Assembly: GCF_012844365.1 (NCBI RefSeq)
Contig: NZ_CP051626.1
Span: 3,038,001-3,102,000, forward strand
DNA length: 64,000 bases
Reading direction: 5' to 3'
Source: Brevibacterium sp. 'Marine'
GTDB lineage: Bacteria > Actinomycetota > Actinomycetes > Actinomycetales > Brevibacteriaceae
Shown: positions 4,350 to 53,606 of the stretch, one piece after another
Layout of the letters: each line of letters starts with the position of its first letter
How positions within the stretch are numbered: the stretch's first letter is position 1
Program-made: the position numbers and the translations under genes
Notes under the pieces: generated by a model
What the model was told of the DNA's origin: nothing
The model's database searches: none
Seen by the model: only the letters and a program-made list of their open reading frames with translations

Positions 4350-5792
4350 TCAGAGCTCGACTTCGCTGCGATCCCCCGACCACAGGGTGTGGAAGGTCCC
4401 GGGACGGTCGGTGCGCGCATAGGTGTGCGAACCGAAGCGGTCGCGCTGGGCCTGGATGAGAGCGGCGCTGCCCGCCTCGGAGCGCAGTCCGTCGAAGTAG
4501 GACAACGTCGAGGCCAGTCCGGGGACGGCGATGCCGCCACCGATAGCCTGGACGACCGTCGAACGCAGGGATTCCTGGCAGCCCTCGGCAACCTCGCGGA
4601 CGAACTCGGCAGCCAGCAGGATCTCTGGAGGGGCCGGGGAATCGAAGGCCCCGACGATGCGATCGAGCAGTCGGGCCCGGATGATGCATCCGGCCCGCCA
4701 GATCCCAGCGAGGCGCCCGAGGTCGATGTCCCAGCCGTGTTCGGCAGCCCCGGCAGAGATCTCGTGGAAGCCCTGCACGTAGGCCATGACCTTGCCGAGC
4801 AGCAGCGCCCGACCGATCTCGTCGATGCGAGCCGTCCGCTCGTGGCCGGGCAGCGACGACGGTTCCGCGCCGGGACGGGGACCGGCCAGCCGGAGCCCCT
4901 GAGCGCGCAGATCGAGCGCGGATGACAGCGACCGGGAGAAGACCGCCTCGGCGATGGTGGGCACCGGAACCCCGAGATCCAGCCCGACCTGCGCTGTCCA
5001 CGCACCCGTGCCCTTGGCCTTCGCCGCATCGGCGACGATATCGACGAACGGCCGGCCCGTCGCCTCGTCGACGTGGGCGAGGACGTCGGCGGTGATCTCG
5101 ATGAGGTAGGACTCGAGCTCTCCGGTGTTCCAGTCGGCGAAGACCTCGGCGATCTCGGCCGGCGTCATCCCCAGGCCGTCGCGCAGGAGGGCGAAGGCCT
5201 CGCTGATGAGCTGCATATCGGCGTATTCGATGCCGTTGTGGACCATCTTGACGAAATGCCCGGCCCCGTCGGTGCCGATGTGGTCGACGCAGGCCTCATC
5301 TCCGGCCCGTGCCGCGATGGGTTCGAGCAGGGGGCGCAGACGCTGCCATGCGGTCTCCGATCCGCCGACCATGAGGGAAGGTCCGAGCAGAGCGCCGACC
5401 TCTCCCCCGGAGATGCCGACCCCGGCGAACTCGATGCCGGTGCCCTCGAGTCGGACCCCACGGTCGATCGTGTCCCGGAAGTGGGAATTGCCGCCGTCGA
5501 CGATGATGTCACCCGGTGCGAACGCCTCGGCGAGGTCGCCGATCGCCGAATCCGTGGCTCTTCCGGCGTTGACCATGAGGATCGCCACCCGCGGTTCGGC
5601 GAGCTTCGCGGCCAGGTCGGCCGGGTCGGAGGCGACGATGAAATCGGCCTCGGGGAAGTCCTGCGCCAGGCTCTGGGCGCGTTCGACGTCCCGGTCGTAG
5701 ACGGCCACACGGTGGCCGGACTGACGGGCGAGATTGCGGGCGAGATTCGATCCCATCACACCGGTTCCGATCACTGCGACATCGGCCTTCAT
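4350..5792 (-). CDS. gnd: 6-phosphogluconate dehydrogenase, decarboxylating
   Basis: Gnd oxidises 6-phosphogluconate to ribulose 5-phosphate and CO2, the last oxidative step of the pentose phosphate pathway. The 480-residue product has the normal length of the decarboxylating dimeric form. The N-terminal nucleotide-binding motif is IGTGVMGSNLARN. The substrate loop is GVGISGGEVGALLGPSLMVGG, split here as GVGISGGEVG and PSLMVGG, and the catalytic segment is FVKMVHNGIEY with its Lys and Asn. A helical C-terminal domain holds KGTGAWT. The start at 5792 (MKADVAVIG) has an AGAGGAA ribosome-binding site. It is divergent from gntK across a 125-bp AT-rich gap, so gluconate made into 6-phosphogluconate by GntK is passed straight to Gnd. 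Assignment is secure. Confidence 0.96.
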   Translation of the reverse strand: MKADVAVIGTGVMGSNLARNLARQSGHRVAVYDRDVERAQSLAQDFPEADFIVASDPADLAAKLAEPRVAILMVNAGRATDSAIGDLAEAFAPGDIIVDGGNSHFRDTIDRGVRLEGTGIEFAGVGISGGEVGALLGPSLMVGGSETAWQRLRPLLEPIAARAGDEACVDHIGTDGAGHFVKMVHNGIEYADMQLISEAFALLRDGLGMTPAEIAEVFADWNTGELESYLIEITADVLAHVDEATGRPFVDIVADAAKAKGTGAWTAQVGLDLGVPVPTIAEAVFSRSLSSALDLRAQGLRLAGPRPGAEPSSLPGHERTARIDEIGRALLLGKVMAYVQGFHEISAGAAEHGWDIDLGRLAGIWRAGCIIRARLLDRIVGAFDSPAPPEILLAAEFVREVAEGCQESLRSTVVQAIGGGIAVPGLASTLSYFDGLRSEAGSAALIQAQRDRFGSHTYARTDRPGTFHTLWSGDRSEVEL

Positions 5793-5852: not shown

Positions 5853-5917
5853 GCAATAAATCTGTTTTAATAACTGATTGTAGATATTTCTTCATATTTT
5901 ATCGAGAGGTTTCGGTT

Positions 5918-6430
5918 ATGGGTCACAGCCCTTTCCTTCCACCGCTCGTCATCATGGGTGTCTCGGGAACCGGCAAAACCGTCCTCGGCGCGCAGGTGGC
6001 GCACGCCCTCGACCGTCGATTCGTCGACGCCGACGATCTGCACTCCGCGGCGAACAAAGCGAAGATGGGCTCCGGGGTGCCGCTCACGGATGAGGATCGG
6101 GCCCCCTGGCTCGACAGTGTCGCACTCGAAGCCGCCCGCACCCCGGCTCCCGTCATCGCCTGCTCCGCACTCAAGCGCACCTACCGTGACCTGCTGCGCA
6201 GGTCCGCACCCGAGCTCGTCTTCATCCACCTCGACGGTCCTCGAGAGGTCATCGCCGACCATCTGGCCCGCCGCGACCATGAGTTCATGTCCCCCGACCT
6301 GCTCGACTCGCAGCTGGCCACCCTCGAACCGCTCGCTGCCGAGGAAGCTCACGCCACCGTCGACGTCGACCAGTCGATCCCCGATGTCCTGGGTGCGATC
6401 CTCGCATCCGTGAAGCGGATGAGCGCATGA
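5918..6430 (+). CDS. gntK: Gluconokinase
   Basis: This 170-residue kinase phosphorylates D-gluconate with ATP to 6-phosphogluconate. The P-loop GVSGTGKT lies at residues 13-20, followed by FVDADDLHSAANKAKMGSG, the typical substrate segment of the GntK shikimate-kinase-like family. CSALKRTYRDLLR carries the conserved basic residues, and HLDGP and RRDHEFM complete the signature. The start at 5918 follows a GAGAGG ribosome-binding site; the frame is open further upstream but lies in the AT-rich promoter region. It is followed 50 bp later by gntP and faces gnd. Assignment is secure. Confidence 0.95.
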   Translation: MGHSPFLPPLVIMGVSGTGKTVLGAQVAHALDRRFVDADDLHSAANKAKMGSGVPLTDEDRAPWLDSVALEAARTPAPVIACSALKRTYRDLLRRSAPELVFIHLDGPREVIADHLARRDHEFMSPDLLDSQLATLEPLAAEEAHATVDVDQSIPDVLGAILASVKRMSA

Positions 6431-6480
6431 TCACCCCGTCCACCGTCCGTCCATCCACCTGACCTCAAGGAAGAGGAACA

Positions 6481-7884
6481 ATGACCGAACTCGAACTGGC
6501 CTGGACTCTGTCGACCCCGGCCCTGCTGGGTCTCGCAGCCGCGGCCATCGCCGTGCTGCTCCTGCTCATCATCAAGGCACGCGTCCATGCCTTCATCGCC
6601 CTCGTCATCGTCTCAGTGATCACGGCGCTGGCCGCCGGAATCATGCCCGGCGACCTCATCGACGTCCTCTACGACGGTTTCGGGTCGACCCTGGCCAGCG
6701 TGGCCCTGCTCGTGGGCCTCGGTGCGATGCTCGGGCGGATGCTCGAACTCTCCGGCGGCGCCGAGGTGCTCACCGATGCCCTCATCCGCCTCTTCGGTGA
6801 GAAGCGAGCACCGTTCGCCCTCGGTGTGACCTCACTGCTCTTCGGCTTCCCGATCTTCTTCGACGCCGGCCTCGTCGTCATGCTGCCGATCATCTTCACG
6901 ATCGCGCGCCGCCTCGGTGGATCTCTGCTGCTCTACGCGATGCCCGCGGCCATGGCGTTCTCCGCCATGCACATCTTCGTGCCCCCGCACCCCGGCCCGG
7001 TCGCGGCCTCCGGACTGCTCGGCGCGAACGTCGGACTCGTCCTCATCTGCGGACTCGTCGTCGCCATCCCGGCCTGGTACCTCACCGGGTACCTGTTCGG
7101 GCTCATCATCGGCCGACGCATCGACGTCGCGGTCCCGTCGGTCCTCTCGGCAGGGAAGGACGACACCTATGCCGACTTCTCCTCGCGCCCGAAGCTCGGC
7201 CACGTCATCTTCCTCCTCGTCCTGCCGCTCGTGCTCATCTTCCTCAACACCGGGCTGAACTTCGCCGGTGAAGCCGAGTGGGTCGATGTCGAATCGGTGT
7301 TCATCAGCTCCCTGCGACTGCTCGGAGAGACCCCGATCGCCCTGCTCATCACCGTCATCATGGCCATGTGGCTGCTCGGCTGGAAGCAGAAGAAGGGCCA
7401 GTCGCTCATCGAGACCGTCGTCGACTCCGCGCTCGGCCCGGTGTGCTCGATCATCCTCATCACCGGCGCCGGCGGCATGTTCGGCGGAGTCCTGCGTGCC
7501 AGCGGCATCGGCGATTCGCTGGCCGAATCACTTGCCGCCCTCGGCCTGCCCGTCATCGTCGCCGGATTCGTCATCGCCGCGATCGTGCGCATCGCGCAGG
7601 GTTCGGCCACAGTGGCGCTGACGACCGCGGCGGCTCTCGTCCAGCCGATCGTCGTCGGCAACCCCGACTTCTCGAGCCTGCAGGTCGTCGCGATCGTGCT
7701 GTCGCTGGCGGCCGGTTCGGTCTTCGCCAGCCACGTCAACGACTCCGGCTTCTGGCTGGTCTCCCGCTTCTTCGGCATGGACACGAAGACGACGCTGAAG
7801 ACCTGGACCGTTGCGGAGACGCTGCTGGGCACCGTCGGATTCCTGCTCAGCCTGGTCCTCTACGGAATCGTCAGCCTGTTCTAG
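6481..7884 (+). CDS. gntP: Gluconate:H+ symporter, GntP family
   Basis: The 467-residue, very hydrophobic protein belongs to the GntP permease family, which imports gluconate with protons across the cytoplasmic membrane. About twelve to fourteen membrane segments are apparent. Family signatures include FGFPIFFDAGLVVMLPI near residue 122 and FVPPHPGPVAASGLLGAN near 163. ITGAGGMFGGVLRASGIG lies near 325 and ASHVNDSGFWLVSRFFGM near 420. AAGGAAGAGGAA precedes the ATG. It follows gntK by 50 bp, so the two form a transport-phosphorylation operon. Other GntP members carry related sugar acids, but the linkage to gntK and gnd makes gluconate the likely substrate. Confidence 0.94.
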   Translation: MTELELAWTLSTPALLGLAAAAIAVLLLLIIKARVHAFIALVIVSVITALAAGIMPGDLIDVLYDGFGSTLASVALLVGLGAMLGRMLELSGGAEVLTDALIRLFGEKRAPFALGVTSLLFGFPIFFDAGLVVMLPIIFTIARRLGGSLLLYAMPAAMAFSAMHIFVPPHPGPVAASGLLGANVGLVLICGLVVAIPAWYLTGYLFGLIIGRRIDVAVPSVLSAGKDDTYADFSSRPKLGHVIFLLVLPLVLIFLNTGLNFAGEAEWVDVESVFISSLRLLGETPIALLITVIMAMWLLGWKQKKGQSLIETVVDSALGPVCSIILITGAGGMFGGVLRASGIGDSLAESLAALGLPVIVAGFVIAAIVRIAQGSATVALTTAAALVQPIVVGNPDFSSLQVVAIVLSLAAGSVFASHVNDSGFWLVSRFFGMDTKTTLKTWTVAETLLGTVGFLLSLVLYGIVSLF

Positions 7885-7900
7885 GACAGGTTCTCGGCCG

Positions 7901-7963
7901 CACGGGCGCCTCGGACCAGTCGACGGGCGCCTCGGACCATGCGACGGGCCTCTCGAACCAGGC
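7901..7963. repeat. Three 21-bp tandem repeats between gntP and gntR
   Basis: Units of the type GACGGGCGCCTCGGACCANNC occupy 7901-7921, 7922-7942 and 7943-7963; the third differs at a few bases. They lie between convergent stop codons and are outside any gene. Confidence 0.8.
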
Positions 7964-7973
7964 GTCGGTTTCG

Positions 7974-8747
7974 TCAGTGTCCGGTGTGCCGGGGTTCGTC
8001 GGCCCAGACGCTGCCCATCTCCGCATCGGCCTTGGCCACGATCTTCGCCATCGCGTCCTTCGCCCGGGCCGGGTCCTGCCCGCCGATGGCGTCGGCGACG
8101 TCGAAATGCCATTGCAGGGCATCCGGATGCGGGAACTTCGGCATCAGCCCCGCCCCGGTGCGCCCGGCGAGGATCTCACCGATGACGGTGTCGAAGGCGG
8201 CGAAGAGCTCGTTGCCGCCGGCGCCGAGCACCGTCCGGTGGAACGCCACATCGGCATCGAGGAACGCTTCGACATCGCCCTGTCTGCCCGTCGCCCTCAT
8301 CCGGGCGGCCAGACCCATGATCTCCTCGGCGACGTCCGCCGGGGCATGCTGAGCGGCCAGTCCGGCCGCTTCGGGTTCGATGGCCACCCGCAGTTCGGTC
8401 AGCGATCGCAGCTGCCGCGCCGGAGTCTCGGTCATCCTCCAGCGGATGACGAGCGGGTCGAGCAGCATCCATTCGCTCATCGCGAGCACGACGAGACCGA
8501 CTCGACGGATCGGCTGCAGCATTCCCAATGATTCGAGGACTCGCACGACTTCGCGCACCACCGACAGCGACACGTCGTAGCGGGCACGCAGATCCTCGGC
8601 CTTGATGATCGTTCCGGCGGCCAGCCGCCCGGCGACGATGTCCTGCCCGACCTGGTCGCGCAGCGTCTCATGGAGGTTGCTGCGGTTCTCCGGCCCCGAT
8701 TTCGGACTGCCGGCCGCCTCGGCGGGGGCGCCGTTGCTCTCCCCCAC
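7974..8747 (-). CDS. GntR-family transcriptional regulator, FCD type
   Basis: This 257-residue protein has an N-terminal winged helix-turn-helix (residues about 25-90, with IKAEDLRARYDVSLSVVREVVRVLE) and an all-helical FCD effector domain (about 100-235). The FCD domain carries the ligand/metal residues seen in ELRVAIEPEAA, DVAFHRTVLGAGGN and WHFDVADAI. The family represses sugar-acid genes and is released by the sugar acid, so control of gnd and gntKP is the natural inference. The start is GTG at 8747, only 2 bp after the ispE stop. The regulator therefore appears to be the last gene of the rsmA-ispE run rather than having its own promoter. It converges with gntP. Confidence 0.86.
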   Translation of the reverse strand: MGESNGAPAEAAGSPKSGPENRSNLHETLRDQVGQDIVAGRLAAGTIIKAEDLRARYDVSLSVVREVVRVLESLGMLQPIRRVGLVVLAMSEWMLLDPLVIRWRMTETPARQLRSLTELRVAIEPEAAGLAAQHAPADVAEEIMGLAARMRATGRQGDVEAFLDADVAFHRTVLGAGGNELFAAFDTVIGEILAGRTGAGLMPKFPHPDALQWHFDVADAIGGQDPARAKDAMAKIVAKADAEMGSVWADEPRHTGH

Positions 8748-37047: not shown

Positions 37048-37088
37048 CCGCCGTTGTGAAGAACGTGCCCGCCGTAGTGAATGACGTG
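37048..37088. repeat. Two 21-bp direct repeats at a convergent junction
   Basis: CCGCCGTTGTGAAGAACGTG (37048-37067) and CCGCCGTAGTGAATGACGTG (37069-37088) repeat with 21-bp period between the GNAT and acpS stop codons. Confidence 0.75.
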
Positions 37089-37111
37089 CTGAGCGTATTA
37101 CAGGCGAAACC

Positions 37112-37582
37112 CTACCGGCCGGGCGTCGAACCCGGGCGCGATCCCTTCCCGTACATCGAATGGGTGAAGTGGTCGGCGATCCCTTCGATGCCGGGGCTCA
37201 GCGACGGGCCGTCGCCCTCTGCGATGACGAACGTCATCGTCAGGTGCGCATCGTGGGTGATCGACAGGTGGATGTTCGTGCCCCCGATGGCACGGAAGTG
37301 CTCGAGCACGAGCCCGCGCAGACGGAAACTCGGCGCACCGGAGAGCGCGGGGACCACCTCGGCGGATTGCCACGGCAGCCATCCGGGGAAGCCGATCGCT
37401 TTCTTCAGCGCCTCCTTCGCGGAGAACCGCGCAGCCAGGGAGGCATCGGTCCGGCGTTTGCCGTTGCGTTTGAGCTGTTCACCGGGGGTGAGCAGGCGAT
37501 CAAGAAGTTCGGGCACGCGTTCGATGTGCTCCGCGAAGCGCGGCACGTCGGCGATGTCCGTGCCGATGCCTAGAATCGCCAC
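37112..37582 (-). CDS. acpS: Holo-[acyl-carrier-protein] synthase
   Basis: AcpS transfers 4'-phosphopantetheine from CoA to the serine of acyl carrier protein. The family motifs are GIGTDIADVPRF at the N-terminus (metal-binding Asp) and RFSAKEALKKAIG near residue 53, with HLSITHDAHLTMTFVIAE near 105. The 156-residue length is above the usual 120-130 because of a 25-residue C-terminal tail with Gly/Ser/Pro. The start is GTG with a strong GAGGAGG upstream. It follows glmS by 73 bp, as in other actinobacteria. Confidence 0.95.
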   Translation of the reverse strand: MAILGIGTDIADVPRFAEHIERVPELLDRLLTPGEQLKRNGKRRTDASLAARFSAKEALKKAIGFPGWLPWQSAEVVPALSGAPSFRLRGLVLEHFRAIGGTNIHLSITHDAHLTMTFVIAEGDGPSLSPGIEGIADHFTHSMYGKGSRPGSTPGR

Positions 37583-37655
37583 AATCGAACCTCCTCAGAT
37601 ACCCGACCGACTCAGATGCCGGACCGACCGATGTCGTGCCCGGCACCGAGGCGGA

Positions 37656-39530
37656 TCATTCGACCGTGACCGACTTCGCGAGGTTGCGCGGCTGGTCGAC
37701 GTCGAGGCCCTTGGCCGTGGCCAGCTCCATCGCGAAGATCTGCAGCGGAACGGTCGTCAGCAGCGGAGCCATGAGCGTCGTCGTCTCGGGCACGAAGATG
37801 ACCTCGGAGGCGAACTGATCGACCTCTTCGTCGCCCTCCTCGGCGATGACGACGGTGTTCGCACCGCGGGCGCGGACTTCCTGGATGTTCGAGATGACCT
37901 TCGCATGCAGCGAATCCCGGCCGCGCTTGGACGGGACGACGATGATGACGAGCTGACCGTCGTCGATGAGCGCGATCGGTCCGTGCTTGAGCTCACCGGC
38001 GGCGAAGCCCTCCGCGTGGATGTACGCGAGCTCCTTGAGCTTGAGCGCACCCTCCATCGCCACCGGGTAGCCGACGTGACGGCCGAGGAACAGCACGGAA
38101 TCGACGTCCTGATTGCGGTCGGCCAGCGCCAGGACCTGCGACTTCGTCTCGTCGAGGATGTGCTGGATCTTCTCCGGGATGGACTGCAGCTCGGCGAGGA
38201 TCGTGGCGATCTCATCGCGGAACTTATTGCCCCGCAGCTGGGCGAGGTAGAGGCCGAGCAGGTAGCAGGCGACGACCTGCGACAGGAAGGCCTTCGTCGA
38301 GGCCACGGCGATCTCCGGGCCGGCGTGGGTGTAGAGCGCGGCATCGGATTCGCGCGGGATCGTCGAGCCGAAGGTGTTGCAGATCGCGATGACCTTCGCG
38401 CCCTGCTGACGGGCGTGGCGGACGGCCATGATCGTGTCCATGGTCTCCCCGGACTGCGAGATCGCCACGACGAGCGTCTTCTCCGTGACCACCGGGTCCC
38501 GGTAGCGGAATTCGTGGGCCAGCTCCACCTCGGTGGGGATGCGGCACCAGTGCTCGATCGCGTACTTCGCGACCTGACCGGCGTACGCGGCGGTGCCGCA
38601 GGCGATGACGACGATCTTGTCCACGGACTTGAGCACGTTCTCGTCGATGTGCATCTCGTCCAACGTCAGGCGGCCCTCGGTGTCGAGGCGGCCGAGCAGG
38701 GTGTCGGCCACGGCCTGCGGCTGATCGTGGATCTCCTTGTCCATGAAGGACGCGAAGCCGCCCTTCTCCGCCGAGGCAGTGTCCCAGTCGACCTCGAACT
38801 GCTCGCCTTCGACGGGGTTGCCGTCGGTGTCCGTGATCGTCACCGCCTCCGGGGTGATGGTGACGACTTCGTCCTGGCCGATCTCGACGGCCGTGCGGGT
38901 GTAGTCGATGAACGCGGCGACGTCGGAGCCGAGGAAGTTCTCCCCCTCGCCGAGGCCGATGACCAGCGGCGAGTTCCGGCGGGCGGCGACGACCTTGCCG
39001 GGAGCATCGGCGTGGACGGCGAGCAGGGTGAACGCGCCCTCGAGTTCGGTCGCGGTCCTGCGCATCGCGGCGGTGAGGTCGCCGGTCTCCCGGTAGTTCT
39101 TCGCCAGCTGGGCGGCGGCCACCTCGGTGTCGGTCTCGGAGAGGAATTCGACGCCCTCGGCGACGAGGTCCTTCTTCAGGTGGGCGAAGTTCTCGATGAT
39201 CCCGTTGTGGATGAGCGCGAGCTTCCCACCGTCGGCCAGGTGCGGGTGGGCGTTGACGTCGGTGGGCCCACCGTGGGTGGCCCAGCGGGTGTGGCCGATT
39301 CCGGTCTGCGCAGCCGGCAGCGGGTTGGTCTCGATCTCCTCGGTCAGGGCGGAGAACTTTCCGGCCTTCTTCGCCGAGGCGAGCTGACCGTCTTCGGTCA
39401 CGAGCGCGACACCGGCCGAGTCGTAGCCGCGGTATTCGAGCCTCTTCAGGCCGCCGAGCACGACATCGAGCGCCGAGTGATCGGCATTGTCAACGGGGGC
39501 CTTGGATACATAGCCAACGATTCCACACAT
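37656..39530 (-). CDS. glmS: Glutamine-fructose-6-phosphate aminotransferase (isomerizing)
   Basis: GlmS makes glucosamine 6-phosphate from fructose 6-phosphate and glutamine, the first committed step to UDP-GlcNAc. After Met removal Cys1 is the glutaminase nucleophile (MCGIVGYVS). The N-terminal amidotransferase also has RWATHGGPTDVNAHPH. Two SIS domains follow (about 300-430 and 470-615), with ACGTAAYAG, SQSGETMDT and the C-terminal LAKSVTVE. The 624-residue length is normal. The start follows a TAAAAT -10 by 7 nt with no ribosome-binding site, so the mRNA is probably leaderless. GlmM, encoded upstream on the same strand, catalyses the next step. Confidence 0.97.
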   Translation of the reverse strand: MCGIVGYVSKAPVDNADHSALDVVLGGLKRLEYRGYDSAGVALVTEDGQLASAKKAGKFSALTEEIETNPLPAAQTGIGHTRWATHGGPTDVNAHPHLADGGKLALIHNGIIENFAHLKKDLVAEGVEFLSETDTEVAAAQLAKNYRETGDLTAAMRRTATELEGAFTLLAVHADAPGKVVAARRNSPLVIGLGEGENFLGSDVAAFIDYTRTAVEIGQDEVVTITPEAVTITDTDGNPVEGEQFEVDWDTASAEKGGFASFMDKEIHDQPQAVADTLLGRLDTEGRLTLDEMHIDENVLKSVDKIVVIACGTAAYAGQVAKYAIEHWCRIPTEVELAHEFRYRDPVVTEKTLVVAISQSGETMDTIMAVRHARQQGAKVIAICNTFGSTIPRESDAALYTHAGPEIAVASTKAFLSQVVACYLLGLYLAQLRGNKFRDEIATILAELQSIPEKIQHILDETKSQVLALADRNQDVDSVLFLGRHVGYPVAMEGALKLKELAYIHAEGFAAGELKHGPIALIDDGQLVIIVVPSKRGRDSLHAKVISNIQEVRARGANTVVIAEEGDEEVDQFASEVIFVPETTTLMAPLLTTVPLQIFAMELATAKGLDVDQPRNLAKSVTVE

Positions 39531-39537
39531 GAGGGAG

Positions 39538-39543
39538 ATTTTA
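39538..39543 (-). promoter_or_regulatory. -10 hexamer for leaderless glmS mRNA
   Basis: TAAAAT on the minus strand ends 7 nt before the ATG at 39530. The intervening bases CTCCCTC cannot pair with anti-SD, supporting a leaderless start. Confidence 0.6.
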
Positions 39544-39716
39544 CGCACTCCCGCCCGTTCTCGTATATTTCGGCGAGTCACGATCGGGTCAACGTGACCA
39601 ACCGCACGCGCACGCGGGCACGGTGGGACCGCCTCGGTGAGGGTGAGGGCATTGCCCGACCTGTCCCGGGTGGGGGCATTCGCCGACCTGGCGCGGGGGC
39701 AGAACATGACGCGTGA

Positions 39717-45904: not shown

Positions 45905-48355
45905 GTGCCGACTCATTCCAGCCTGCTCTTCCGACTTCCCGCATTGAGAATCCTGATGCTGGGTCTGCTGGTCGGGCTGCTGACGGCAGGCCTCGGACTC
46001 GGCCCCGCCTCCGCGTCGGCATCGCCCGACGATACGGCATCGCCCAATGGTTCGGCTGCGAACGTCAGCGCATCCTCCGCGCAGGCCGCCGACGCCAGTA
46101 GGCCCCCGGCCGGGCAGACGATCGTCTTCGGCATTCCGGGTCTGACCATCGATGATATCGATCCCGAGCGCACTCCGAACCTCTACCGCCTGCTCTCCGA
46201 GGGTGCGGCCGCGAATCTCAACGTGCGCACGATCGGCGCGGCCACCTGCCCGGCGTCGGGTTGGCTGTCCTTCGGCGCGGGCGCCCGTGCGCAGGCCGGG
46301 CCCTCCCCCGCCGCCGAGGATGCCGACGCCGATGACTCAGCCAGATGCCCGACGATGATCGCCCCCACCACGGACGGTTCCGCGGACACCGAGAACGGGG
46401 CCGCCTCGGCGAAGGACGCCGCGGACAGTGATGAAGCTCATGCTGACGAAACGGCCACGGGAGCGACGACCGCGCGGATCGAGGGCTTCGACGCGGTCAA
46501 GGAGCCCAACATCGGTTCCGGCTACTCCGTCGACTACGGCATGCTCGCGCGCGCCGTCGCCGGAGCCGGCAAGGCCGTGCCCGCCGGCACCGACGCGGCC
46601 GATGCGGACTCCCTGCTCGAACCCTGCGTCGCCGCCGAAGGCCCCGGCGCCGCCTATGCCACCGCGGACGACGACGGGGTGGTGACGAACTTCACGGAGG
46701 ATGCGACCGCCACGGACTGCCGCCTCGGCGTCGTCGACCTCGGTGCGATCGGCATCCGCTCCTGGCTGTTCGACCCGATCCCGAACTACTCCTATACCGT
46801 TCCGCCGGATTTCGATCGGGAGGCCCGCGTCGCCGAAGCCGACCGCCGCCTCGGCGTGCGTCTGCAGGAAATGCGGGAGAACGCGAAGGACGGGGCCGCG
46901 GAGCCGACGATCATCGTCGCCGGCCTCGGTGACAGTTCCGGTCTGCCGCAGCTGCGGGCGTTCATCGCCGCAGGCCCGGGCTTCGAGCCCGGGTCGCTGT
47001 CCTCGGCGACGACCCGCACCCCGGGGCTGCTGCAGATCACGGATCTGGCACCGGGCATCCTCGATGTCCTCGACGTCGATTCCCCGCGCGCCGTCGGCTT
47101 CGATTCCAACCCCACCGAAGATGATCCGCAGCAGCGCATCGACGATCTCGTCGCCGAGGCGCAGAAGTCGACGACGATCCACCAGAATCTCTCGACGTTC
47201 TCCATCACCCTCGATATCATCTTCTACGTCCTCTTCATCGCGTGTGCGATTCTGCTCAACCGCTCCATCCTCGGTCGCCGAGGCGGCGCCACCCGAGCTG
47301 CCCACGTCCACCGCTTCCTCGGCTGGGTGTCCCTGGCCGTCGCGTCGCTGCCGATGGGGGCGTTCCTCGCCGGGCTCGTCCCCTGGTCGCGGACGGCCGA
47401 TCCCGGACTCGGCCTGTTCCTCTCGGTCATCGGCACGGCCGCCGTCCTGTTCGTCGTCGCCCTCATCCCACCGTGGGGGCGGACCTGGCGGGGACGGGTC
47501 GGCGCTCTGGCCGGGGCGAACCTGCTCATCCTCGCTGCCGACCTGGCCACCGGGTCCCATCTGCAGGCGAACTCGCTGCTCGGCTACAACCCGATCGTCG
47601 GCGGCCGCTACTACGGGCTCGGCAATCAGGGTGCGGCGATCTTCATCGTCAGCCTCTTCATATTCTTAAGCGTCGTGGTGTCGTGGCTGCGGGCGCGCGG
47701 CCGGCGAAAAGCCGTGATCATCGTGCCGATCGCCATCGGTCTGGCAGCCGTGTTCGTCTCCGGGAACCCGTCCTGGGGTGCGAAGTTCGGCGGCACGATC
47801 GCCATCCTCGCCGGCCTCATGGTCCTCGTGGCGCTGCTGACGAAGATCCGACTGACTCTGCTGCGCCTCGCCCTCATCGGCGTGGCATCGCTGGCGATCC
47901 TCATCGGCATCGCCTTCCTCGACTGGCTGCGCCCGGCCGGGGCCCGCTCGCACTTCGGCACGTTCTTCGACCAGATCGTCACCGGTGAGGCCCTGCAGGT
48001 GATCGGCCGCAAGCTCGGCGCGAACCTCCACATCATCCAGATCAACCCGGCCCTGGCGATCGTCACCCCGCTCGCGGTCATCGCGATCCTCATCTTCCTC
48101 CGCTACCTCCTCCACTTCCCCCGCGTGCACGCCGGCAGCCGGACCGGGCGCCTGGTCAACAAGTGGCGGGGTCGGCTCCCCCAACTCTTCGCCGATTCCG
48201 ACCTGCACTATGGATTCCTCGCCGCCGCCACCGGGCTCGGCGTCGGGCTCGTACTCACCGATTCCGGTGTCGCCGTACCCTCGACCGGAGCCATGGTTCT
48301 CCTGCCCTTCCTACTGGCGCTCAGTGCTGAACACGCCGAGGAGGCTCACCGATGA
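45905..48355 (+). CDS. Large polytopic envelope protein with phosphatase-like ectodomain, copy 1
   Basis: I do not know a function for this 816-residue protein. A signal-anchor (residues 12-36) precedes an extracytoplasmic domain (about 37-425) that begins like the alkaline-phosphatase superfamily. TIVFGIPGLTIDDIDPERTPN is followed by LYRLLSEGA and a CPASGWLSFGAGARA loop where the metal site would be. Acidic Ala/Asp inserts follow. The C-terminal half has about eleven membrane helices (from about 433). Motifs shared with the next protein are DLATGSHLQANSLLG, RYYGLGNQ (about 569), FLDWLRPAGARSHFGTFFD (about 670) and LTDSGVAVP (about 786). The start is GTG. It overlaps copy 2 by 4 bp. Related conserved proteins occur in actinobacteria; an envelope glycan or lipid role is a guess. 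Confidence 0.85.
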   Translation: MPTHSSLLFRLPALRILMLGLLVGLLTAGLGLGPASASASPDDTASPNGSAANVSASSAQAADASRPPAGQTIVFGIPGLTIDDIDPERTPNLYRLLSEGAAANLNVRTIGAATCPASGWLSFGAGARAQAGPSPAAEDADADDSARCPTMIAPTTDGSADTENGAASAKDAADSDEAHADETATGATTARIEGFDAVKEPNIGSGYSVDYGMLARAVAGAGKAVPAGTDAADADSLLEPCVAAEGPGAAYATADDDGVVTNFTEDATATDCRLGVVDLGAIGIRSWLFDPIPNYSYTVPPDFDREARVAEADRRLGVRLQEMRENAKDGAAEPTIIVAGLGDSSGLPQLRAFIAAGPGFEPGSLSSATTRTPGLLQITDLAPGILDVLDVDSPRAVGFDSNPTEDDPQQRIDDLVAEAQKSTTIHQNLSTFSITLDIIFYVLFIACAILLNRSILGRRGGATRAAHVHRFLGWVSLAVASLPMGAFLAGLVPWSRTADPGLGLFLSVIGTAAVLFVVALIPPWGRTWRGRVGALAGANLLILAADLATGSHLQANSLLGYNPIVGGRYYGLGNQGAAIFIVSLFIFLSVVVSWLRARGRRKAVIIVPIAIGLAAVFVSGNPSWGAKFGGTIAILAGLMVLVALLTKIRLTLLRLALIGVASLAILIGIAFLDWLRPAGARSHFGTFFDQIVTGEALQVIGRKLGANLHIIQINPALAIVTPLAVIAILIFLRYLLHFPRVHAGSRTGRLVNKWRGRLPQLFADSDLHYGFLAAATGLGVGLVLTDSGVAVPSTGAMVLLPFLLALSAEHAEEAHR

Positions 48356-50553
48356 GAGCCCCCGTGACCTCCCCTGCCGCCCGGGTTCTCCTCGGGATGC
48401 TCGCCATCGTGCTTCTCGTCCTCGGCCTGCCCCACGCCGGGCAGGCGGCCCCGGCCGCGGGCCCGGCTGCGGAAGAGAGCGAGGGCGGGGCCGCCTCGGC
48501 GAATTCCGGTGTCGTGTCGATCAACGTCTCCGGATTCCGCTTCGAGGACCTCGACCCGCGCACCACACCGCACCTGTGGGTGATGATGAAGGGCGGTCAA
48601 ATCGGGACGATCACCCCGCGCAGCGTGCGCTCGACGAGCTGCCCGGTCGACGGCTGGCTGGGGCTCGGCTCGGGACGGCGGGCCGCCGACGAACCCCGCG
48701 ATCAGTGCCGCGTACCGGCCTCACCGCTCGACGGCTGGGTCGCCGATTGGGACGTCTACGCGCAGGTGGCCCGCGGTGACAACTACGATGCGTCCCTCGG
48801 AGCGCTGGCCGAGGCCGTGCCCGATATCCGCGCCTTCGGCAACGGTGCCGCGATCGCCGCCGCCTCCCCTTCCGGCCATGTCGAGAACTGGTCGCCCGTC
48901 GGGCCCGACCTGGGAGCGGACGTGGCGAAATCGGCCGCCGACGGTGAGCTCACCCTCGTCGATCTCGGCAACACCGCCGCCGACGGTTACTCTCTGAAGA
49001 ATCTCGATGCACAGGTCGGGGACATCCTCGAATCGACGGGGTGGATGAGTGCGGACCGGCCGAACCGCCTCGGCGAGGGAACCGTTCCCGTGGTGTTCTC
49101 CTCGATCGCCGACGGCACGCACGAAGGCTCGTCGATGCAGGCGACGATGATGGTCGAACCGGGTGAGCCGGCGGGTCTGCTCACCTCCTCGTCGACGCGC
49201 CAGCCGGGGCTGGTGCAGGTGCCCGACCTGGCACCGACGCTCGCGGCTCTGTCCGGGGCCGAGGAGATGGACAACGCGGCCGGGGCACCGATGACCTCGG
49301 GTGCGCACGGATCCGATTGGCATTCGCGCTATCAGGCCGTGCTCGACCGGCAGGTGGCGGTGAAGACGCAGAACGACCTGTCGACCTGGTTCTTCCCCGT
49401 CGTTGCCACGCTCATGGTCGGGCTGCTGGCGTTGGCGTGGTTCATGCGCAAGAACCACCGGGAGCTCGTCCATTCCGGGGCGTACCGCCTCGGTGTCGTG
49501 TTCGCGGCGATGCCGATCTCGACGTATCTGGTCAACACCGTGCCGTGGGAACGGGCGACGAATCCGGACATCGCGATGCTCGGTGCTCTGGCGGGGTGGT
49601 CGCTGCTGCTCGGAGTGCTGGCGCTGCTCGGCCCCTGGCGGCGGCACACGTTCGGGCCGGTGCTCTTCGTGTCCACCGTGACCGTCGTCGTGCTCGCCTA
49701 CGACGTCGTCACCGGGTCCCAGCTGCAGATGTCGACGCTGCTGGGCGAGCCGCTGCTCATCGCCTCCCGGTTCTACGGGATCGGGAACTCCGCGCTGGCC
49801 CTGTACTGCTGTGCGCTGCTGTTGGCCGTCACCGGCTTCGCGTCCTTGGTGACGAAGCCTCTGCACCGTGTACTCATCGTCACTGTGCCCGTCCTCGTCT
49901 CGTGTGTCATCTTGGCCGCCCCGGGGTTGGGGACGAAGTTCGGGTCCGTGCCGACGCTCATCATCGGGGTTGCCTACCTCGTGCTGGCGGCGGCGAGCAT
50001 CCGGTTCTCGGTCAAACGGCTGGGGCTGACGGTGGGCATCGCCGGTTTCGTCATGCTCACCGTGCTGTTCCTCGACTGGCTGCGCCCGGCCGATCAGCGC
50101 ACGCACTTCGGACGGTTCTTCGATTCGATCATCAGCGGACAGGCGCTCAGCGTGCTGGCCCGCAAGATCGGGATGAACATCGACATCCTCACCCAGTCGT
50201 GGATGACTCTGGTGCTCCCGCTCATCATCATCGGCGTGTTCTGGATGGCACTGGACCCGCAGCGTTTCCGGCTGCAGGGACTCCAAGACACGTACCGGCG
50301 GGTTCCGCTGCTGAGAGCTGCGATGATCAGCTTGGCGATCCTGCTGGGCGTCGGCACCCTCATCAACGACTCGGGTATCGTGGTCCCGGCCGTCGGCATC
50401 CTCTTCCTCGTCCCGGTGCTCACTCACCTCGAGACTTTCCGCGCCGGCCGCCCGCAAGTCCCGGCCGCCGGTGACGCCGCCGCCGATGCTGATGCGACCC
50501 CTGCCGGCTCCGGTGCCGAGGCCGACGGCTCCGATACATCGTCACGCCCCTGA
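48352..50553 (+). CDS. Large polytopic envelope protein with phosphatase-like ectodomain, copy 2
   Basis: This 733-residue protein is a diverged paralogue of the preceding one and is translationally coupled to it by ATGA. It has a Sec signal (1-28) and an ectodomain (about 30-335) with VVSINVSGFRFEDLDPRTTPH and CPVDGWLGLGSGRRA. From about 344 about ten membrane helices follow. Its versions of the shared motifs are DVVTGSQLQMSTLLG, RFYGIGNS (about 473), FLDWLRPADQRTHFGRFFD (about 572) and INDSGIVVP (about 672). The C-terminus is an Ala/Asp/Ser tail. Sequence divergence with full retention of these motifs suggests a heteromeric pair rather than recent duplication. No function can be given. Confidence 0.85.
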   Translation: MRAPVTSPAARVLLGMLAIVLLVLGLPHAGQAAPAAGPAAEESEGGAASANSGVVSINVSGFRFEDLDPRTTPHLWVMMKGGQIGTITPRSVRSTSCPVDGWLGLGSGRRAADEPRDQCRVPASPLDGWVADWDVYAQVARGDNYDASLGALAEAVPDIRAFGNGAAIAAASPSGHVENWSPVGPDLGADVAKSAADGELTLVDLGNTAADGYSLKNLDAQVGDILESTGWMSADRPNRLGEGTVPVVFSSIADGTHEGSSMQATMMVEPGEPAGLLTSSSTRQPGLVQVPDLAPTLAALSGAEEMDNAAGAPMTSGAHGSDWHSRYQAVLDRQVAVKTQNDLSTWFFPVVATLMVGLLALAWFMRKNHRELVHSGAYRLGVVFAAMPISTYLVNTVPWERATNPDIAMLGALAGWSLLLGVLALLGPWRRHTFGPVLFVSTVTVVVLAYDVVTGSQLQMSTLLGEPLLIASRFYGIGNSALALYCCALLLAVTGFASLVTKPLHRVLIVTVPVLVSCVILAAPGLGTKFGSVPTLIIGVAYLVLAAASIRFSVKRLGLTVGIAGFVMLTVLFLDWLRPADQRTHFGRFFDSIISGQALSVLARKIGMNIDILTQSWMTLVLPLIIIGVFWMALDPQRFRLQGLQDTYRRVPLLRAAMISLAILLGVGTLINDSGIVVPAVGILFLVPVLTHLETFRAGRPQVPAAGDAAADADATPAGSGAEADGSDTSSRP

Positions 50554-50984: not shown

Positions 50985-53606
50985 TCAGCTCTGGAGGCTG
51001 AGCTTGCGGCGGCGGACGATCGTGACCGCGGTGGTGCCGGCGACGATGAGCGCCAAGGCCGCAGCGACGATGTTGACGGTCTCGAAGCCGGTGCGCGGCA
51101 GGTCACCGCCGTCCTTCGAACCGTTCGCATCGGCCCCCGAACCATCGGCCGCACCGCCGTCGGCTGAGGCGTTCGAACCGTCGGCTCCGCTGCCGGCATT
51201 CGACGAACCGTTATCGGATCCGTCGGCCGTGCTGTCCCCGCCATCGGCGCTGCCGCCGGCCGCGCTGTCTCCGCCGTCAGCGGCACCGCCGTCGGCCGAA
51301 CCGTCGTCGCCGGCCGAGGCATTCGCATCGTCACCGACTGCAGCGGTGGCTTCGAACTCGTGAGCCAGCGGCAGCGGGTTGTCATCCCACCACGGACCAT
51401 CGGCGTTCGCCTGCACGCTGACCGTCACGGTCACCTCGCCGGAGGCATCGTCCGGCGCGGTCACGGTCACCGGAGTCTCGGACTCCCCCGCCGGAATCGA
51501 GTCGAGCGTGATCGTCGTGGCGGCCGCCTCGGCGCTGACCTCAGAGGACGTGCTCTTAGCAGCCTTCGCGGAAGCCGACTGGGCTCCGGCCTGCTGGGCC
51601 ACCTCGGCGGTATATCCCTCCGGCAGGTCGACGGTGACGTCGATGGGGCCTGCGACCTCGGACTTCGCATTCGTCCTGAGCGCGAACTCAGCGCTCTCAC
51701 CGGGCTTGATGGATGTCGGCCCGGTCAGCTCTGCGGTGAGGTCGCCGCTGTCGATGACGTCCTTGGCCGCATCGGCCTGGCGCTCGTTCTTGTCCGGGGT
51801 GACGTCCTCGCCCTCGGCCTGGTGCTTGTTGAAGTAGTTCTCCCAGGTCTCGAAGTCGGTCAGTCCCGACTGCTCGAAGTCGCCCTTGGCGAAGGAGGAG
51901 AAGTTGTCACCACCGGCAGCGAGGAAGCTCAGCGTCGCGACCCGGTAGTCCTTGTCCGGGTCGAGGTCCTTGCCATCGACCTTGACGGACTTCACGTGCT
52001 CGCCCTTGTCAGCGTCCGTGTCGTAGACGACGTCCAGGTCATCGGAGATGCCCAGGTGCAGGAACGGGCGGGACGCGTCCTCGGGCTGCCACTGCTCCTC
52101 GAAGAGGCCGATGACGTCCGACCCCTTCATCGTCACGACCCCGTGGTCGTTGGCGAAGGGAAGCACGCTGTTGAGCTCGGCGACGGTGACTTCGCACTCG
52201 TCCTCGGTGTTGTAGATGTCATCGCACAGCAGGTCGGTGCGCAGTCCGCCCGGGTTCGTGATCCCGAAATCGGCTTCCTCGAGCTGAGTCTCCTCGACGC
52301 CTTCCTTGAGTGCATCCGCGACGAGGTTGCCCAGCGTGGACTCGGCACCGCGGTCCTCCTCGCCGTCCTTCTTCGCGCGGGTGATGTCCTCGCTGATCGT
52401 GCCGGTGACCTCGGAGCCGAGCTCCTTGGCCTTGTCCTCTGCGTCGCTGACGATGGCGGCGACCTTGTCGACGACCTCGGAGTCGAAGCTCTTGTCTTCG
52501 GTCTCGATGAGGTTGATGCCGCCTGCCTGCCAGTCGCCGTTGCCGTCGACGCGCATAGTCACCTGCCCGACGTATTCGCCGTAGCTGCCGGCTTCGATGA
52601 CGGGACGGGTTCGGTCGGACTCTCCCGGCACCGGCGCTTCGAAGGAATACGGCATGTGGGTGTGGCCGGTGAACATGGCGTCGACCGAGGCGTCGGCCTC
52701 TGTGACGAGCTTCTTGAACTCGGCGTTCGACGCCTCCGCGTCCTCGAGGCTCTCAGCCGATGAGGCGCCGAGGTGGGCCTCGACGACCGTCATATCCGGG
52801 CGTTCATCCTCGGGCAGGTTCTCGAGATCGTCGGCGACGCGGTTGACTGCGTCCGTGGGATCTCCGAAATCGAGGTCGGGGATGCCGTCCGGTGAGACGA
52901 GCGAGGTCGTGTCCTTGGTGACGACGCCGATGACGGCGATCTTCACTCCCGCCACGTCGACGATCGAGTACTCGTCGAGACCGTCGACGACGTTCTGAGT
53001 TCCCTTGTCGTAGACGTTGGCTGCCGAGTACGGGAAATCGGCTTCGTCGCTCACGCGTCCCGTCAGGTCATCGATGCCTTTGTCGAATTCATGGTTGCCG
53101 ACAGCCGAGGCGTCGAGTCCCATGACGTTGAGAACATCGAGGGTCGGGGTGTCGTTCTGCGACGAGGAAGTGTAAGTCGAGGCACCGATGTTGTCACCGG
53201 TCGACAACAGCGCGGTGCCCGCATTGTCGCCGCCGGTGCCGAACTTCGCGCGCTCCTCTTCGACCACCGAGGCCACTTGAGTACCTGCCTCGGAGATGCG
53301 TCCGTGGAAGTCGGTGATGTTGAGCAGCTGGACCGCGGTGCCCTCGGGCGCCGACTGCGCAGCGCTGCCGGAGTCCTGCTCATCGCTGCCGGAGTCCTCT
53401 GCCGTCTCGGACTTGCCGCCGGTGGATGATTCGTTCGACGACTGCTCGGGGTCAGCGGGAGCTGCTTCGCTCGGCTTCGTGACGCTGTCGTCGGTGGAGT
53501 TTCCGTTGCCCAGAGAGGGCGCCGCGATGGCCGGTGAGAGGCTGGGCAGTGTCAGCATCGACACTGCGGCGCCTGCAGCCAGCACTTTGGTCACAAGTTT
53601 CGACAT
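50985..53606 (-). CDS. Cell-wall-anchored 5'-nucleotidase / metallophosphatase
   Basis: This 873-residue surface enzyme probably releases phosphate from nucleotides outside the cell. A Sec signal peptide (1-28) is followed by an acidic Ser/Glu linker. The calcineurin-like metallophosphatase domain (about 90-370) has metal motifs NITDFHGRI, STGDNIGAS, VGNHEFDKG and FTGHTHMPYS. The 5'-nucleotidase C-terminal substrate domain (about 390-610) has NPGGLRTDLL and FANDHGVVTMKG. After a CARDB/Ig-like segment comes an acidic Asp/Gly/Ser/Ala repeat, then sortase signal LPRTG (about 834), a hydrophobic helix and RRRKLSLQS. It has a long AT-richer upstream region with 11-bp-spaced repeats suggestive of phosphate control. 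Confidence 0.93.
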   Translation of the reverse strand: MSKLVTKVLAAGAAVSMLTLPSLSPAIAAPSLGNGNSTDDSVTKPSEAAPADPEQSSNESSTGGKSETAEDSGSDEQDSGSAAQSAPEGTAVQLLNITDFHGRISEAGTQVASVVEEERAKFGTGGDNAGTALLSTGDNIGASTYTSSSQNDTPTLDVLNVMGLDASAVGNHEFDKGIDDLTGRVSDEADFPYSAANVYDKGTQNVVDGLDEYSIVDVAGVKIAVIGVVTKDTTSLVSPDGIPDLDFGDPTDAVNRVADDLENLPEDERPDMTVVEAHLGASSAESLEDAEASNAEFKKLVTEADASVDAMFTGHTHMPYSFEAPVPGESDRTRPVIEAGSYGEYVGQVTMRVDGNGDWQAGGINLIETEDKSFDSEVVDKVAAIVSDAEDKAKELGSEVTGTISEDITRAKKDGEEDRGAESTLGNLVADALKEGVEETQLEEADFGITNPGGLRTDLLCDDIYNTEDECEVTVAELNSVLPFANDHGVVTMKGSDVIGLFEEQWQPEDASRPFLHLGISDDLDVVYDTDADKGEHVKSVKVDGKDLDPDKDYRVATLSFLAAGGDNFSSFAKGDFEQSGLTDFETWENYFNKHQAEGEDVTPDKNERQADAAKDVIDSGDLTAELTGPTSIKPGESAEFALRTNAKSEVAGPIDVTVDLPEGYTAEVAQQAGAQSASAKAAKSTSSEVSAEAAATTITLDSIPAGESETPVTVTAPDDASGEVTVTVSVQANADGPWWDDNPLPLAHEFEATAAVGDDANASAGDDGSADGGAADGGDSAAGGSADGGDSTADGSDNGSSNAGSGADGSNASADGGAADGSGADANGSKDGGDLPRTGFETVNIVAAALALIVAGTTAVTIVRRRKLSLQS

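Follow-up and report, generated by a model that had tools for sequence, protein, structure and literature searches.

The gene pair and its surroundings

The window, that is, the whole stretch of 64,000 nucleotides of Brevibacterium sp. 'Marine' DNA that was analysed, contains two genes in tandem on the forward strand. Gene A (45905..48355, +) has a GTG start and encodes 816 amino acids, comprising a signal peptide, a degenerate phosphatase-fold ectodomain and 11 predicted transmembrane helices. Gene B (48352..50553, +) has an ATG start and encodes a paralogue of 733 amino acids with the same layout. The stop of A and the start of B overlap in the 4 bp ATGA (48352..48355, +), and this in-frame overlap is retained in 35 of the 36 pairs examined. 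The two proteins are 26% identical in an alignment that spans almost their full length (E = 2e-60), a likeness well past chance; the closest named relative of A, from Brevibacterium linens ATCC 9172, stands at 95%. The possibility that these are chance open reading frames was considered, and is ruled out by the paralogy of A and B together with their conservation across the genus. A preliminary description of this DNA, made from its letters, had the two adjacent genes, their lengths of 816 and 733 residues and the 4-bp overlap exactly right. Its identical layout for the two proteins also stands, although the predicted helix number is 11 rather than about ten, and the four motifs that it listed as common to A and B are all present, with a correction of spacing in one of them (RP-x5-HFG rather than x4).

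The gene order is rplM (-), A, B, an LPXTG 5'-nucleotidase gene (-) and truA (-), with rplM, rpsI and glmM forming the flank on the side of A. The pair had been placed between truA and rplM, which is correct on the rplM side, but truA is separated from B by the gene for the LPXTG-anchored 5'-nucleotidase. The latter (window 50985-53606, -) is convergent with B and encodes 873 amino acids with a metallophosphatase domain, an LPRTG sorting signal and a C-terminal anchor. Elsewhere in the window, an 886-codon open reading frame (37056-39716, +) has no Pfam match of any kind. A consensus scan for promoters and terminators gave nothing of note. The host genome comprises 4.17 Mb in one contig, in which A and B are the only members of the family.

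A phosphatase fold without its metal site

The ectodomain of A (residues about 66-405; 46100..47119, +) was assigned to the alkaline-phosphatase/NPP fold from its AlphaFold model and by profile, and that of B (residues about 50-319; 48499..49308, +) to the alkaline-phosphatase fold from its AlphaFold model, the mean pLDDT being 83.0 for A and 87.9 for B. Both ectodomain models match NPP, phosphoglycerate mutase and sulfatase structures, with Z up to about 18.6 and ~215-240 residues aligned. The confident matches of B in a BFVD structure search were phosphatases only, and the family profile, when searched against the PDB, matched only phosphatase-superfamily chains, with nucleotide pyrophosphatase 7mw8 at E = 8e-5. 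On these predicted models, both ectodomains have the alkaline-phosphatase superfamily fold.

Active enzymes of the phosphatase superfamily carry an Asp, which serves as a metal ligand, before the strand-1 Gly. Among the aligning members of the 99-member family set, this first metal-ligand position, before the conserved strand-1 Gly, is occupied by P, A, S, G or T and never by Asp, and the ectodomain is therefore regarded here as a pseudo-phosphatase. The Asp of the DHG-like site persists in 86% of the family and the residue that follows it is not His, so that the metal-ligand set of active phosphatases (the strand-1 Asp and the Asp-His of the DHG site) is not found in this family. The nucleophile position holds Thr or Ser in 88% of the members. 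In A, residues 110-129 (46232..46291, +) carry the CPASGWLSFGAGARA loop at this position, with its Cys (88%), Gly (90%) and Trp (89%) conserved in the family. A second cysteine, Cys148 (87%, in A numbering), is conserved together with that of the loop, Cys115 (88%), and judging from this pattern the two may form a disulfide. The degenerate phosphatase-like ectodomain of the preliminary description is thus borne out by structure comparison, by profile and by the absent metal ligand. The CP-x-x-GWL-x-x-G-x-G-x-RA loop that it singled out can be placed at the phosphatase nucleophile position, in a family that has lost the first metal ligand throughout.

These features bear on a further reading of the pair, as a lipid-dependent phosphotransferase of the LtaS, EptA or GPI-ethanolamine-phosphate type, in which the phosphatase-fold domain would add a phospho-group to an envelope glycan. 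Such an enzyme would account for the superfamily of the ectodomain and for the Thr or Ser at the nucleophile position, but it would hardly dispense with both the first metal-ligand Asp and the His after the DHG-like Asp, and it is the membrane part, not the ectodomain, that is most conserved. We consider a phosphotransferase very unlikely.

Conserved residues of the membrane domain face outwards

The membrane domain of A (residues 425-812; 47177..48340, +) was defined from the model and from loop charge counts. In the model, one helix leads out of the ectodomain and ten more follow, which gives 11, and the topology of B agrees. Lys and Arg make up 15-33% of the inner loops and 0-11% of the outer loops, a positive-inside distribution that backs this topology. 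Conservation is strongest in the membrane part, above that of the ectodomain, and is concentrated on one face: 14 of the 16 polar membrane-domain residues conserved at 80% or more lie in outer loops (W494, R496, Q554, R568, Y570, N574, D673, R676, R681, H683, R702, K703, D786 and S787, all identical in B), the other two being D546, at an outer helix end, and R649, inside. The membrane domain of B (49369..50448, +) shares the conserved outer-face residues of A, among them R473, N479, K529, D575, R578, H585, R604, K605 and D673 in its own numbering.

Four outer loops of A can be picked out. The first, R568-YYGLGN574 (47606..47626, +), has R568 conserved at 98% and N574 at 97% and lies within the stretch that hhalign aligns to the R..G..N region of Wzy_C proteins. 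The long outer loop near the C-terminus (residues 672-714) runs from D673-WLRPAGARSH683 to K703-LGAN707 (47921..48025, +), with D673, R676, R681, H683, R702 and K703 conserved at 84-99%, and the last outer loop, D786-SGVAVP792 (48260..48280, +), carries the conserved D786 and S787. The remaining loop, P622-x-x-GAKFGG630 (47768..47794, +), contains K627 (codon at window 47783-47785; K529 in B), a position at which almost every relative outside Brevibacteriaceae has Asp, in a motif that mostly reads GADFGG there. Lys occupies this position in all 38 A and B sequences of the tree set, and among the 60 further members in which it is filled, 58 have Asp, one Glu and one Lys. A residue that is possibly important to the chemistry has thus been replaced in Brevibacteriaceae.

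Possible relationship to SEDS proteins and O-antigen ligases

In SEDS proteins, O-antigen ligases and polymerases, the conserved residues are all found on the outer face, a long outer loop is present towards the C-terminus, Arg residues serve Und-PP and His, Asp or Glu residues serve the acceptor (PMC10920833). The A/B family displays three traits of the GT-C_B group (CAZy clan GT-C1), namely 8-14 helices (11 here), outer-face conservation and a long C-terminal outer loop. Arg and His/Asp residues of the O-ligase-like kind are present as well, in a loop alignment too weak to equate positions.

Profile comparison of the membrane domain with Wzy_C proteins by hhalign gave P = 4.7e-4 over 105 columns for the whole family, 4.0e-4 with non-A/B members and 1.8e-3 with the independent alignment A6. 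The scores of 34-38 compare with 13-23 for MurJ, GT87 and most reversed profiles and with 30 for one reversed control, and the hhalign probability is just 15-35%, which is under normal significance limits. Subsets of A only and of B only matched Wzy_C more weakly, B equalling no more than its own reversed control. When the target columns were block-shuffled, the real score of the non-A/B profile was beaten by none of 300 decoys, for Wzy_C and for SEDS alike; for the profile of the whole family, 9 and 3 decoys out of 300 reached the real score. The hhalign comparison with SEDS proteins, whether from Brevibacterium relatives or from the wider phylum, was not significant; the SEDS and Wzy_C profiles match one another at 5e-9, in an alignment that begins in the same Wzy_C region.

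Direct searches were negative within their scope. Pfam and NCBIfam had nothing above cut-off for A, B or the family, and SEDS (PF01098) and Wzy_C (PF04932) were absent among the best 25 of 31 Pfam families at E up to 10 for 58 members. A PDB sequence search returned nothing for A alone and nothing for the membrane-domain profile, SEDS and ligase chains included, and in a plain hmmsearch with the HMM of the membrane domain, the SEDS, Wzy, MurJ and GT87 sets could not be told from reversed controls. With the whole model of A, RodA (6pl6_A) was the top membrane-type match in Foldseek (probability 0.66, E = 0.24); the VIA-align matches for A and B all fall in the phosphatase domain and are therefore silent on the membrane fold. 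The outer-face pattern, the long C-terminal loop, the weak profile likeness to Wzy_C and the RodA match together suggest that the membrane part has the GT-C_B architecture of SEDS proteins, O-antigen ligases and polymerases.

The polytopic membrane domain could also be that of a transporter or flippase with an envelope lipid or glycan as its substrate; it would then move a lipid-linked sugar for the ectodomain to receive. Relatives do lie near glycosyltransferases, and MFS-type transporters occur among the Foldseek matches listed for model A, but the transporters there have probabilities of at most 0.16. Furthermore, the conserved polar residues are found in outer loops and not across both faces or in the helix core, and several relatives already adjoin a MurJ-like flippase. 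We regard transport as unlikely. The preliminary description had left transporter, polymerase and transferase side by side. The outer-face residues, the weak likeness to Wzy_C and RodA, and the glycosyltransferase and MurJ-like neighbours favour a polymerase or transferase acting on an envelope glycan.

Distribution and evolution of the family

Homologues occur in Brevibacterium, Sediminivirga, Jiangella, Pseudactinotalea, Arcanobacterium, Trueperella, Phycicoccus, Geodermatophilus, Kribbella and Brachybacterium, and a protein query of the class detected the family in 92 of the 247 genomes sampled. Among 57 Brevibacterium species, A and B lie side by side in 51, neither is present in six, and neither ever occurs singly. 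Outside Brevibacteriaceae there is mostly one gene per genome, some genomes having two unlinked copies. The co-occurrence of the two genes is therefore obligate in Brevibacterium (51 of 51 genomes with either gene), but not elsewhere, where homologues are usually single; no known enzyme function attaches to these single homologues. The view of the pair as a candidate undescribed system holds to the extent that no Pfam or NCBIfam entry names the family and our literature search found no paper naming it.

In the tree, the A clade and the B clade each have a support of 1.0, and the sister grouping of A and B is weak (0.51). As the family is usually single-copy elsewhere, the pair appears to be a lineage-specific duplication, and the simplest reading of the sequences would be one duplication at the base of Brevibacteriaceae. 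In Sediminivirga luteola (L058), A and B form a single open frame of 1544 amino acids. A 1510-codon frame with two full copies of the family (L139:4596-9125, +), in lineage G043, is placed apart from A and B in the tree, so that this fusion is independent of the Brevibacteriaceae pair. Two other arrangements were observed. A Trueperella MAG has two divergent members on opposite strands a few kb apart (L047:2-2248, -, and 5899-8097, +), and one Brevibacterium genome has B broken into two separate frames (G366:C1:1593538-1595708), perhaps through a frameshift or sequencing error.

Gene neighbourhoods of the relatives

In several genera, the single homologue lies between pheA and genes for a family-2 glycosyltransferase and a DUF5926 protein, and in Geodermatophilus the cluster reads steA - ... 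- MurJ-like - GT4 - homologue - CTP synthase. Relatives often adjoin glycosyltransferases or sit in steA-steB-flippase-GT4-X-pyrG clusters. Among 99 proteins encoded near relatives, GT2 occurs 14 times, GT87 seven, GT4 six, MurJ-like proteins five, DUF5926 six and CTP synthase six, all as raw counts without a genome-wide background. The Brevibacterium A/B pair has no adjoining glycosyltransferase. In the host genome, a GT2-DUF5926 pair at 3.84 Mb and a recN-steA-steB-(weak PF00953)-MurJ-like-GT4-(GT-like)-pyrG cluster at ~2.46-2.48 Mb both stand without a homologue alongside, and neither a Wzy_C protein nor GT87 was found in that genome. The steA-steB...pyrG cluster (L301:2815-11683; about 2.465-2.474 Mb of G000) is a possible partner locus, in which a second GT-like protein (4503-5639) occupies the place of the Geodermatophilus family member. 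We infer that a candidate initiating transferase, the glycosyltransferases, a candidate flippase and A/B would make up a complete Und-P-based pathway.

The steA-type clusters also touch on a non-enzymatic role, in which A and B, as a PbgA/YejM-like pseudo-enzyme, would detect an envelope lipid or glycan and, as regulator or scaffold, control other wall enzymes. The work cited here describes SteA and SteB as cell-separation factors in Corynebacterineae (PMC6705760), and some relatives lie in clusters of this type; the degenerate ectodomain and the presence of the YejM periplasmic domain among the best Foldseek matches point the same way. Yet the catalytic-looking Asp, Arg, His and Lys residues of the outer loops are kept at 84-99% and in both paralogues, and a scaffold is unlikely to need them. 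A purely regulatory role accordingly seems improbable to us.

Proposed function

We propose, tentatively and at somewhat less than an even chance, that A and B are two subunits of an extracytoplasmic glycan-assembly enzyme, i.e. a heteromeric outer-face transferase, polymerase or ligase acting on an undecaprenyl-linked envelope glycan. The assignment draws on weak remote similarity, architecture and gene order, by which membership of GT-C_B is suggested; from these we infer the GT-C_B fold, a lipid-linked donor, glycosyl transfer and a physical A-B heteromer. In each membrane domain, the conserved outer-face Arg and Lys residues would hold an undecaprenyl-pyrophosphate-linked saccharide, which the domain would pass to a growing chain or to a wall acceptor, as in SEDS polymerases and O-antigen ligases. 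Acid/base residues of the outer loops (H683, D673 and D786 and, for most relatives, the GADFGG Asp too) could assist, and the pseudo-phosphatase ectodomain might bind the acceptor glycan, or position or regulate the enzyme, rather than cleave phosphate.

The idea of a heteromer is based on the co-occurrence in 51 of 51 genomes, the coupled start in 35 of 36 pairs and the 1544-residue fusion of Sediminivirga. The data fit a heteromer of A and B in Brevibacteriaceae only, and the heteromeric system first suggested is to that extent consistent with obligate co-occurrence, coupled translation and natural fusion, and restricted to this one family of bacteria. As the full residue set is present in both A and B, two active sites are likelier than one active and one dead subunit; the latter arrangement was considered and is not favoured, A and B keeping the same residues.

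The pair is neither ordinary nor an artefact. It is possible, though on balance doubtful, that it represents a new Actinomycetes-wide family of extracytoplasmic glycan polymerases or ligases, with a pseudo-phosphatase built into a GT-C_B-like enzyme, which in Brevibacteriaceae became an obligate heterodimer with Lys in place of Asp near the active site and makes a wall glycopolymer. If the family does assemble a lipid-linked glycan, it would add one more family to the SEDS/O-ligase group, give an instance of a pseudo-phosphatase serving as an integral partner domain, and direct attention to an envelope polymer conserved in actinobacteria, which gene order would connect with steA-steB and a MurJ-like flippase. 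A suitable test bed is offered by the Brevibacterium pair, with a single operon and both genes always present.

Comparison with known systems

Several known systems share parts of this architecture. With the NPP/alkaline-phosphatase superfamily (PF01663), A and B have the ectodomain fold in common (Z about 18.6; profile E = 8e-5 to 7mw8), but their family has lost the first metal-ligand position throughout. PbgA/YejM is likewise an inner-membrane protein with a phosphatase-fold outer domain, is among the best Foldseek matches and, to our knowledge, is itself not an active phosphatase; in PbgA, however, few helices precede the domain, whereas in A and B the domain precedes all 11 helices, which have a conserved polar set of their own. 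GPI ethanolamine-phosphate transferases of the PIG-N/Mcd4 type have a phosphatase-fold outer domain followed by many helices, the same order of parts as in A and B, but they retain an active metal site, which A and B do not have, and they are absent among the Foldseek matches listed.

For the membrane domain, helices 2-11 of A and B can be matched by eye to the topology of the SEDS proteins RodA/FtsW (PF01098; CAZy GT119), with corresponding conserved loops. The profile likeness to SEDS is not significant, though, no PBP partner is known for A and B, and the host genome has two SEDS proteins of its own. The O-antigen ligase/Wzy_C enzymes (PF04932; CAZy GT121, clan GT-C1) differ in that the A/B family has no Pfam match, carries an N-terminal pseudo-phosphatase ectodomain and occurs in actinobacteria, which have no LPS acceptor. 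They nevertheless share with A and B the many helices, the conserved outer-loop Arg and His, the long outer loop near the C-terminus and a weak profile match over 105 columns, and the relatives of A and B adjoin glycosyltransferase and flippase-like genes, as is the case for these enzymes.
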